This document shows, one piece after another, positions 7,397-11,834 of a stretch of 64,000 nt of DNA; positions within the stretch are counted from its first letter, which is position 1; each line of letters opens with the position of its first letter. Made by a program: the position numbers and the translations under genes. Source of the stretch: Haladaptatus sp. R4 (lineage in GTDB: Archaea; Halobacteriota; Halobacteria; Halobacteriales; Haladaptataceae). The stretch spans positions 1 to 64,000 of the forward strand of contig NZ_LWHG01000006.1 of NCBI RefSeq assembly GCF_001625445.1, written 5' to 3'. The notes under the pieces are model-generated. The model was not told the DNA's origin, searched no databases, and was given only the letters and a program-made list of their open reading frames with translations.

Positions 7397-7852
7397 CAAT
7401 CCTTTCGTCACGGTAATCGGAGGAACGAGATCTCGAAAACCGGTGGAAACGGCGCTGTCTTTCCAGATGGAACTGCCTCGTCGTCGGTGAGAGGTTTCGT
7501 GCTTCTCCGAGGGGAGCGACCCGGCCAAAATCACTTCCGATTATCAAACTAAGCGGCAGTATTGCCGAAAATGGCGTGGTCGGAGAATTTGGGTTATAGA
7601 GAGCGTGAAACGAAAGTATTCGAGATGATAAACAGTATATCGCTATATAAAATCTCGAGAATGTGAAGTTGAGACTACACAGGCAAGAGCGACCCCAGAA
7701 TGCACGATATTAGCCAATGCACCTGCTGCAAGCGCTTCAAATTGAGGTCCAGAGATCTATTTTGGTTACTATTCTAACTCGTCCCGGGTTTAGCGACCGG
7801 CCGGATCAGCGCTGCCGCTAATCACCTGGCATTCATCGGCTCAAAATTTGTT
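7397..7852. other. Non-coding, AT-rich left flank of the halocin island; contains repeat copy
   Basis: No gene is supported. Positions about 7674-7770 resemble 10236-10330 (shared start TGAGACTACACAGG, then AATGCAC and CAAGC-CTTCA blocks) at moderate identity. The composition changes from GC-rich to AT-rich here, marking the left border of the accessory island. Confidence 0.5.
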
Positions 7853-8312
7853 CTAGCCGATCCCAGTTTGCTTCAACAGTGTAAGGACCGTATTTGCGGT
7901 CACAACTGGTGACTGCTTGTACTCACCGGTCACTTCGATCTGCACCAGCAGATCAACAGCACGCCAAATTGAGTACAGCAAACACGCGAATGCGAAGTAG
8001 AAGAACCGTAGCACAAAATTCTTTGATGTCGTTGCGGCCATGAACCGTTTGACGCTTTTGTACCCACTCTCGATTTCCCACCGATACGCATATTCTCGCA
8101 ACAACCTCGGATCTCCGTTCGTCATGAACACCGAATACTGGCGATAATCGGTGCGCTCGGAGTTGTCCTTGCGTCGGTACACTAGTGTCGTTTCGTGCCA
8201 CTCATCGTCATTCAACAGAAGGCTCCGATCAGTCACGTACCGGTTTTGATCCCATTGCAGTAACCGCTGTGCTTGGGCTTTCTCACTCGTCCACCAAACA
8301 TCAATATACAGA
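7853..8312 (-). pseudogene. ISH3-like (IS4-superfamily) transposase, C-terminal fragment
   Basis: The frame reads DVWWTSEKAQAQRLLQWDQN onward and carries the C-terminal Y-R-E-K signature of DDE transposases in EYAYRWEIESGYKSVKRF, then a hydrophobic FFYFAFACLLYSIW segment and ends in LLKQTGIG. Only about 150 residues remain; the N-terminal two thirds with the two catalytic aspartates are missing, and the sequence upstream of 8312 is unrelated AT-rich DNA. It is therefore a dead remnant. A GTG at 8236 gives the longest start but is not a natural N-terminus. Confidence 0.8.
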
Positions 8313-8381: not shown

Positions 8382-9206
8382 ATGTCCAGAAATACAAACC
8401 AGAAGGAAGATAAAAAAGATTCAAAAAGGTCGATTAATCGGCGTCGCTTGATTAAGACAATGGGCGTTGTAGGAGGGGCAACAGCTTTGGGTAGTACAGC
8501 AATCGATACAGCTGCTGCCAAACATGGAGAAGTCAAAGAGGTCAAAAAGAATATCACAGTAGAATCTCTTTCCGCTCCAAGAAATGAAGGTGTAATCCAA
8601 CGTGCGATAAATGATCCAGCAGTTAAAAAGATAAAAAGCAAATTCAATCGTGAAGGATGGGTACTCTCACAAGATGATCTGAACGCACTTAAGTCCACCC
8701 AAGAGAACAAAAAGAACTCACCTGATTCGACATATTATACTGTAATATTACCATTTAAACGACCAAGGGAGAATGGTAACGAAGAGACATATATTACTTG
8801 GTCAAGCTACGGGGATCTTGAACCGAGAGGATACAATGTCCATCAGAAGTCAGATGTACAAACAGAAGAGACAGAATCAAAGGTAGAATTCACCTCTTAC
8901 TGGGTCGAAAACGGTGAACTCAAATCGCATAATGGAACCGATTCGCTCGATCCAGACATAAATCATGGTTCTGTTTCAGCAAAATTGCTCTGCACAGCCA
9001 TGTATACATGTACTGGAAATCTGAATACCGCATGTATAGCTGGTGCGGCTGCCGGAGTAGTCGGCGGATCGGAGAGTTGCAAGGCTTGTTACGTCGATGT
9101 AACACGCATTAGCTGCATTGCGTGTGCGGCCGTTCTTATCGGAGCAGGGATTACCATTTCTCAGTGTTGTCAGCACGGGCACTGGGACTGTATATTCTGC
9201 TGCTGA
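8382..9206 (+). CDS. Halocin C8-like bacteriocin precursor
   Basis: The 274-residue preprotein has a Tat signal (NRRRLIK at 19-25, then a hydrophobic VVGGATALGSTAIDTAAA stretch), a polar central region of about 150 residues, and a C-terminal domain of about 75 residues with 12 cysteines (CTAMYTC, CKAC, ISCIAC, QCC, WDCIFCC) separated by glycine/alanine-rich hydrophobic helices. This is the layout of halocin C8 (HalC8), where one Tat-exported precursor is cut into an N-terminal immunity protein and a Cys-rich antimicrobial peptide. The gene is lysine-rich and AT-rich compared with its neighbours, suggesting transfer. Sequence identity to characterised halocins cannot be measured here; class assignment rests on architecture. 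Confidence 0.78.
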   Translation: MSRNTNQKEDKKDSKRSINRRRLIKTMGVVGGATALGSTAIDTAAAKHGEVKEVKKNITVESLSAPRNEGVIQRAINDPAVKKIKSKFNREGWVLSQDDLNALKSTQENKKNSPDSTYYTVILPFKRPRENGNEETYITWSSYGDLEPRGYNVHQKSDVQTEETESKVEFTSYWVENGELKSHNGTDSLDPDINHGSVSAKLLCTAMYTCTGNLNTACIAGAAAGVVGGSESCKACYVDVTRISCIACAAVLIGAGITISQCCQHGHWDCIFCC

Positions 9207-9243
9207 CGAACTTTTTTATGCGATTCGGATTTATAGCATAGTA

Positions 9244-9411
9244 ATGCTAGGAATTAGTCGCAGCACCACATTTCTTCTCTCAGGAATAGTTCTACTTTTA
9301 GTTGCCACTTACGAGTGGATGATTGGGATTTCGTATGGAGCATTGTTTTTTGCAGTTGCAGGCTTATTGACACTATATATGAGTTATAACTATAGAAAGA
9401 ATTATGAATAA
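9244..9411 (+). CDS. Small two-TM membrane protein downstream of halocin gene
   Basis: From ATG 9244 the frame encodes 55 residues with two hydrophobic helices (FLLSGIVLLLVATYEWMI and ALFFAVAGLLTLYM) and a basic tail. It begins 37 bp after the halocin stop on the same strand, so it may be co-transcribed. Position and size suggest an accessory immunity or export factor, but no family is recognised and the evidence is context only. Codon use is AT-rich like the halocin gene. Confidence 0.5.
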   Translation: MLGISRSTTFLLSGIVLLLVATYEWMIGISYGALFFAVAGLLTLYMSYNYRKNYE

Positions 9412-9764: not shown

Positions 9765-10112
9765 ATGATCTCTCGCAAAGCACGCCTCCGATACATTCCG
9801 TACGGATTGATAGTCGTTGGTCTCATAGCTATCTGGTACGGTTACTTTGAGCGTCTTCCATTCCTTTTCATCGGAGTCGCCGCCATCCTTGGAGCAGGGT
9901 CTGTCCTCGTTCGTGGATACACCGCAGCTAATCTTGCAATCATGTTTGGAGTAATGTCACTGAGTGGCTTGCTTGGTGTTATCTATGCAGTTGGTGTCAG
10001 CAGGGCATCAATATGGGCTATTGCCTATCTTGCAGTTGGAATTGCGGCAGGCATACGGGCCAGACAATACTGGCAGGCCCGTCCGTGGAAACCAGAAGAT
10101 AGTGGCTGGTAG
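9765..10112 (+). CDS. Four-TM hypothetical membrane protein
   Basis: The 115-residue product has four predicted membrane helices (starting YIPYGLIVVGLIAIWYGY, then PFLFIGVAAILGAGSVLV, LAIMFGVMSLSGLLGVIY and IWAIAYLAVGIAAGI) and a charged C-terminus ending PWKPEDSGW. ATG 9765 is chosen over an upstream ATG at 9747 because the helix follows a short basic N-terminus (SRKARLR). It sits in the halocin island; a role in producer self-protection is possible but unsupported. No family recognised. Confidence 0.55.
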   Translation: MISRKARLRYIPYGLIVVGLIAIWYGYFERLPFLFIGVAAILGAGSVLVRGYTAANLAIMFGVMSLSGLLGVIYAVGVSRASIWAIAYLAVGIAAGIRARQYWQARPWKPEDSGW

Positions 10113-10516
10113 GGTTGTTAGATTAGTGCTCTACTAAGTAGCTGACCTAGCTACAATCTCCCCGAGCAGGGTCTCAGGTAGCTCCACCGTATGCATTGAG
10201 AGAGCCAGTCTCAACCATTGTCGAGAATCGGAAGATGAGACTACACAGGAAATAGCAATCCCAAAATGCACAATTATTGCCGATCCGTCCTACTACAAGC
10301 ACTTCACGCTGAACCTGAAAGGCGTTTCTGATTTATTTTTTAACATTTTCGCAATTGTCGTCACTTTGCTAGATATCTCGTATGGCATCTATTCCGATAG
10401 TAAGCGGTAGCTACTTCCTCGACAGAGCCGACCTCTGATGGTTCGGACGAAGGGATTATCGAGGCAAATAACTGAACGACCATAACCATTATTCTGCTCT
10501 CCGAAGCGGTCACAAT
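10113..10516. other. Intergenic repeat-bearing segment
   Basis: Contains the best-preserved copy of the island repeats: 10189-10220 (GTATGCATTGAGAGAGCC) resembling 9569 and 11124, and 10236-10330 resembling 7674-7770. No coding frame is convincing. It may be the remains of an insertion sequence whose transposase has been lost. Confidence 0.45.
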
Positions 10517-11261: not shown

Positions 11262-11834
11262 TCAGTTGCGCCGATCCGTGTACTGATCGGGGAGCTCCGC
11301 GGGTGCACAGTCGATGATATCCTCACGTTCGGTTCCGACGTCCTCGATAAACGTGATCTCAGCGAACTCATCGACCACCAGCTTTGGATACGTCGGTCCT
11401 TCGTCCCGATACTGGCGCATCTCATCGAGATGTTCGTTTTGGTAGCAGACGGTTAGCTCCGGGTTCTGCTCGATCCACTGTGGGAAGAAAATCACGCCAT
11501 GGACCTCTCGTTCGGTGAGATTGAAGGAAACACTGACGCTGGTTCCAGTCGGCTCGTCCCAAGAGACCTTGAACACGTCATCGGAAAGTCGAACGATGTG
11601 GGCATCCTGGTCACGAACCCATCGGCCGCCGACCATCCCACTATGTATCCGATAATCGATCGTGTGCGCGTCCTTGATATACATCTCGTACTGCCAGCCA
11701 GTATCATACGTGTAGATGAAATGCTTACCAAGAACGCGGGAAAGCGTCTCGGGACGGGTTGATTCAAAGGATTCTGTCACGGGAATAAGTCGTGGGCATG
11801 GCGTGAAGTAACCACCCATAGCGGTCACTTTCAC
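11262..11834 (-). CDS. padC: Phenolic acid decarboxylase
   Basis: The 190-residue protein matches phenolic acid decarboxylases along its length: [65 protein letters not shown] and [20 protein letters not shown]. The tyrosine pair of the active site (YTYD), the Arg in DYRIH and the Glu of DEPTGT are all present. These enzymes decarboxylate p-coumaric, caffeic or ferulic acid to vinyl phenols without cofactor, giving resistance to plant phenolics. It stands alone beside the accessory island, and the family is otherwise mainly bacterial and fungal, suggesting acquisition by transfer. No PadR-type regulator is adjacent. Confidence 0.9.

Follow-up and report, generated by a model that had tools for sequence, protein, structure and literature searches.

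The window analysed here is a stretch of 64,000 nucleotides from Haladaptatus sp. R4, and the gene under study is an open reading frame that runs intact across 274 codons, from an ATG at 8382 to a TGA at 9204-9206 (Table 1). The encoded protein starts with a predicted Tat-type signal (SINRRRLIKTMGVVGGATALG, with SINRRRLIK). Its RR motif is invariant in 18/18 aligned relatives, and the Pfam TAT_signal model scores slightly below its cut-off (18.4 against 22.7 bits). Judged by its sequence, the precursor carries a Tat signal, as precursors of the halocin C8 (HalC8) type do. Apart from weak Tat matches, no Pfam or NCBIfam family covers the protein. All 12 cysteines fall within residues 204-274, the last ~72 residues, and are arranged as CxxC (CKAC, CIAC), vicinal CC (QCCQ) and a terminal CC. 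At the cysteine frequency of the window's ORFs (1.04%), 12 cysteines would fall within 75 residues with a binomial probability of 2e-11; the runner-up among these ORFs has 6 in a stretch of that length. The gene has 43.5% GC against 60.8% in the window. Lysine makes up 8.0% of the precursor and 10.3% of its pro-region, compared with 1.8% of the other window ORFs; the tail, with one lysine, lacks this richness. The earlier note had described a Tat signal and a layout on the HalC8 plan, a C-terminus whose 12 cysteines include CxxC, vicinal CC and terminal CC motifs, and an AT- and Lys-rich gene, all of which was borne out.

Table 1. Features of the locus (positions in the window)
Feature	Position	Strand	Description
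ISH3-family transposase remnant	7853-8236	-	adjoins the cassette
Precursor gene	8382..9206	+	274 aa and stop; Tat signal, HalI-like pro-region, linker and 12-Cys C-terminal peptide
Tat-type signal region (predicted)	8430..8519	+	residues 17-46, SINRRRLIKTMGVVGG...TAAA; RR motif and Pfam TAT_signal match of 18.4 bits
Strand and helix-loop-helix opening the pro-region (predicted)	8553..8651	+	residues 58-90; core of the HalC8-homologous stretch (hhalign, AlphaFold)
Beta part of the pro-region (predicted)	8682..8945	+	residues 101-188; six predicted strands; 85-172 in AlphaFold model numbering
C-terminal Cys-rich peptide core	8991..9203	+	12 Cys; two predicted hydrophobic helices; tail-only profile A4
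55-aa ORF	9244..9411	+	two predicted TM helices; 36% GC; 37 nt past the precursor stop codon; candidate membrane protein with an immunity or accessory role

The precursor gene lies in a low-GC insert, with 20% GC in the 80 bases upstream and 34% downstream, and inspection showed a TATA-like AT stretch upstream of it. A degenerate direct repeat (7655-7718 and 10221-10284; 80% over 64 nt) brackets the low-GC stretch, and a further weak copy is found elsewhere in the same genome (G000:C7:47905). A four-TM ORF at 9765-10112 (+; 112-115 aa) was weighed as a possible second gene of the cassette. It is 93% identical in a genome of the same genus (G008:C29), and it was dropped from the cassette because that genome carries the ORF and its flank without the precursor. 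Further along, a phenolic acid decarboxylase is encoded at 11262-11834 on the minus strand (PF05870, E 5e-80).

As a single query, the window precursor found no relative in collections of genome contigs, viral contigs or phages, and none in the eight same-genus genomes searched. A tblastn search of plasmids gave two distant relatives that share the plan, namely WP_330633771.1 of Actinarchaeum halophilum and, on pHTS138 of Haloterrigena salifodinae, a broken copy. A profile built from five relatives and run over 392 haloarchaeal genomes found full-length relatives in many genera, along with many weaker matches confined to the Tat signal. An RR signal is common to the relatives, as are a tail built on a cysteine core, a linker that is polar or rich in Gly, and pro-region motifs such as Y-x-x-V-x-x-PF and I-x-W. 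They diverge very fast, several are plasmid-borne and broken copies occur among them; the diversity of the A1 alignment ruled out degenerate-pattern scans. Five loci (L009-L013) were rejected as relatives, having apparently matched mainly through the Tat signal. A motif preceding the Tat signal, resembling N-x2-VDDGGGC-x-ETWE, is common to some precursors with either tail type (L018, L029, L032, L053, L062) and was also seen by eye in L021, L139 and L140. In one locus (L042, G210:C54), a related pro-region precedes 18 cysteines in the last 100 residues, apparently another type of tail.

The tail defines a family of its own. Its cysteine core reads C-x(10-16)-C-x2-C-x(6-14)-C-x2-C-x(about 9-16)-C, and the cysteine number is even in 22/26 tails. 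The tail-only profile A4, whose 15 rows include the window sequence, matches the window at G000:C6:8991-9200 with an E-value of 9.7e-11. Across the 392 haloarchaeal genomes, matches occurred in 21; the good ones that were read out formed the C-terminus of precursors of the same plan, save for one frame-broken copy. In a sample of 295 genomes from the phylum, tail matches were again confined to the same order. AlphaFold places helices at 200-222 and 226-246, in a tail that is modelled with low confidence, and the tail profile gave just weak zinc-finger and RING matches in the PDB (E > 0.5). The processed peptide may start some residues before the core, which would give it a length of about 75-85 residues.

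We compared this family with HalC8-type precursors collected by their tail alone through TIGR04449, which matched in 44 of the same 392 genomes; one match (L047) appears to be HalC8 itself, going by the published peptide. The genome of the window holds such a precursor as well, at G000:C21:1025507-1026310 (L002, L114), in which TIGR04449 scores 33 bits over 1026101-1026310 against a cut-off of 24. A Tat-type precursor with a third kind of cysteine-rich tail (10 cysteines, TIGR04449-negative) lies in the region of G000:C28:325849 (L003). Taken as single-sequence relatives of the window precursor, L002 and L003 were rejected, the match being confined to the Tat signal. In a genome-wide search, TIGR04449 (curated cut-off 24 bits) gave no match to the window protein at E <= 10, and it matched 0/18 aligned members of the tail family at E <= 1. 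The tail profiles of the two families could not be aligned (hhalign, 0.4% and 0.2%). The HalC8-type tails have ten invariant cysteines, in a spacing pattern that is absent from the window tail. By its sequence, then, the window tail belongs to a cysteine-rich family separate from the HalC8 peptide, one that may have been predicted earlier elsewhere.

The front half gave a different result. With the Tat signal removed, the pro-region profile matched HalC8 pro-regions at 95.9-96.4% hhalign probability (P 1e-9 to 6e-9, 75-85 columns). Its score was 58.9, against at most 8.7 for 100 column-shuffled controls and 12.5 for the reversed profile. The match persisted when three possible bridging sequences were left out, and also when either of the two sets was narrowed. 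A profile restricted to the three closest HalC8 sequences of the Natrinema type gave a weak signal (14.7%, P 0.002), so it is the broader family that supports the homology. The window protein alone scored 30.1 against all HalC8 pro-regions, and 150 unrelated control ORFs reached at most 18.3. Since the HalC8-type set had been collected by the tail alone, the comparison of pro-regions is not circular. AlphaFold models of the window and HalC8 precursors, built from separate alignments, open with the same order of strand, helix, helix and five strands, with pLDDT of ~90 or more for the helix-loop-helix in each. A sixth strand is present in the window model, whose first elements are E42-46, H49-60 and H63-74 in model numbering (add 16 for protein numbering). 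A Foldseek search of the PDB with the precursor model returned nothing significant. On profile and model evidence, the front half of the window precursor is homologous to that of the HalC8 precursor, and calling it a HalC8-like precursor therefore states more than a resemblance. The earlier note had seen a divergent HalC8 member and proposed a profile search against HalC8 homologues. This search upheld the claim for the pro-region and found no similarity in the tail.

Halocin C8 and its immunity protein, HalI, are encoded in one gene (PMC3831642; PMC11509114). A helix-loop-helix at the N terminus of HalI is essential for immunity, according to the title of Mei et al. 2008 as cited in PMC11509114, and we infer that it is the same element as the one predicted in the window pro-region.

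The precursor gene is followed by a 55-aa ORF that the earlier note had missed. A small multi-TM ORF directly downstream was found for 13/27 tail-family precursors and 7/22 HalC8-type precursors, compared with 6/293 control genes, which were taken by simple greedy gene calling in 20 control regions within those genomes. The criterion was an ATG within -20 to +160 nt, a length of 45-135 aa and at least two hydrophobic 19-mers, with the distance and length limits chosen after an initial inspection of the loci. Such an ORF is commoner downstream of precursors than by chance (Fisher p 9e-12 for 13/27 and 4e-6 for 7/22, relatives being non-independent), an association that is new here. By the criteria used, it is absent from about half of the relatives and from HalC8 itself (L047), and none lies directly downstream of the HalC8-type precursor at C21. 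The encoded membrane proteins have 2-4 predicted helices and are mostly dissimilar to one another, and mutual dissimilarity is common among immunity proteins. For the 55-aa ORF, a search of plasmids gave no relative, and its product could not be matched to any of the other downstream proteins. One natural reading of the downstream ORF is that it encodes a dedicated immunity protein, and in the window its product is as good an immunity candidate as the N-terminal (pro-region) product. Between the two genes there is a T-run at about 9212-9217, which leaves their co-transcription uncertain.

Taken together, these results make it probable that the locus is an orphan two-gene cassette of the HalC8 kind, halocin-like in its putative antimicrobial activity, processing and immunity. 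The folded precursor would be exported via Tat, as its signal suggests, and the pro-region would prevent the C-terminal peptide from doing harm while the precursor folds and is exported. In view of its homology, the pro-region may also bind or neutralise the peptide as HalI does. An extracellular protease, e.g. a halolysin, would then cut the disordered linker; we infer such a release because halolysins activate another secreted haloarchaeal antimicrobial precursor (PMC12893001). Cleavage would free a peptide of 75-85 residues with 12 cysteines and two hydrophobic helices, probably fully disulfide-bonded given the even number of cysteines in most tails. The freed peptide may act on the membrane of competing haloarchaea, and the 55-aa membrane protein probably protects that of the producer, as the family-wide association suggests.

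Across the two families, pro-region and peptide behave, as far as their sequences tell, as separate modules, with one type of pro-region bearing the HalC8 peptide or another. A broader reading, which we hold tentatively and at somewhat less than even confidence, is that a conserved pro-domain for export, folding and perhaps immunity carries disulfide-rich antimicrobial peptides that can be exchanged for one another, that each of these is often accompanied by a small, rapidly evolving membrane immunity protein of its own, and that the window tail is a class distinct from halocin C8. On this reading, many halocins of such a kind may still be unannotated.

Other explanations have to be weighed against a halocin-like cassette. 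The cassette might instead be a remnant, imported and no longer expressed in this genome. The AT-rich insert, flanked by the remains of an ISH3-type transposase and by a degenerate direct repeat, the absence from the eight same-genus genomes searched and the broken copies in relatives would fit such decay. It is nevertheless very improbable, as the frame is intact, the conserved cysteines and the RR motif are retained, and the TATA-like stretch precedes the gene. A larger but still low probability attaches to the window protein being a true, very divergent member of the halocin C8 peptide family, with the same peptide fold and HalI-type immunity conferred by the pro-region alone. The homologous pro-region and the real HalC8-type precursor in the same genome (C21:1026101, 33 bits) speak for it, as does the cysteine-rich, hydrophobic and predicted helical character of both tails. 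Against it stand the failure of TIGR04449 to recognise the window protein (E = 10) or the 18 family members (E <= 1), the tail profiles that do not align, and a CxxC...CxxC core in place of the ten-cysteine HalC8 pattern.

Somewhat less improbable, yet unlikely, is a role outside antimicrobial activity, in which a Tat-exported, disulfide-rich surface protein or signalling peptide, e.g. an adhesin or envelope protein, shares the export and folding pro-region of a halocin. The antimicrobial role of the tail family is itself read from sequence, and the pro-region could be a general chaperone that exports cysteine-rich tails. There are also matches to TafA and TafE fimbrial models, in 3 and 1 of 18 members, respectively, but these are weak and few (best E 6e-4). 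A toxin-immunity cassette agrees better with the patchy distribution (21/392 genomes), with the plasmid and broken copies, with divergence that is very fast and with a small membrane ORF downstream of the precursor gene.

For the halocin-like cassette, the finding that a HalC8-type pro-region also bears an unrelated type of cysteine-rich peptide provides a sequence handle for new archaeal antimicrobials. The frequent small membrane ORF after precursors, including those of the HalC8 type, makes it a directly testable question whether immunity lies in the pro-region, in its neighbour or in both. The relatives in many haloarchaea and the membrane proteins encoded downstream point to a little-explored candidate family of archaeal antimicrobial peptides.

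The closest known system is the halocin C8 precursor (ProC8, comprising HalI and HalC8; NCBIfam TIGR04449). It resembles the window precursor in its Tat signal, length, a disordered linker, a homologous pro-region with helix-loop-helix and beta strands, and a cysteine-rich hydrophobic C-terminal peptide of about 70-85 aa. It differs in the tail, which in the window is TIGR04449-negative and has 12 cysteines with CxxC...CxxC where HalC8 has its ten-cysteine pattern. HmHapP (HFX_0892) of Haloferax mediterranei is comparable in the way it works, with no homology claimed: it is secreted as a precursor that stays latent until extracellular serine proteases activate it (PMC12893001). A difference is that the N-terminal 45 aa, with two helices, form its active part. 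The nearest named full-length relative is the plasmid-encoded WP_330633771.1 (L004/L015), annotated as a hypothetical protein, with 24.8% identity over 95% and a 12-cysteine tail with the same core; in contrast to the window, the criteria applied here identified no small multi-TM ORF immediately after it. In bacteriocin systems with a small membrane immunity protein, a short multi-TM gene that evolves fast comes after the precursor gene. The window shares this order of a precursor gene and then a short multi-TM gene, and differs from bacteriocin systems in being archaeal, in its presumed export by a Tat signal rather than by an ABC transporter or Sec, and in having a long folded pro-region.
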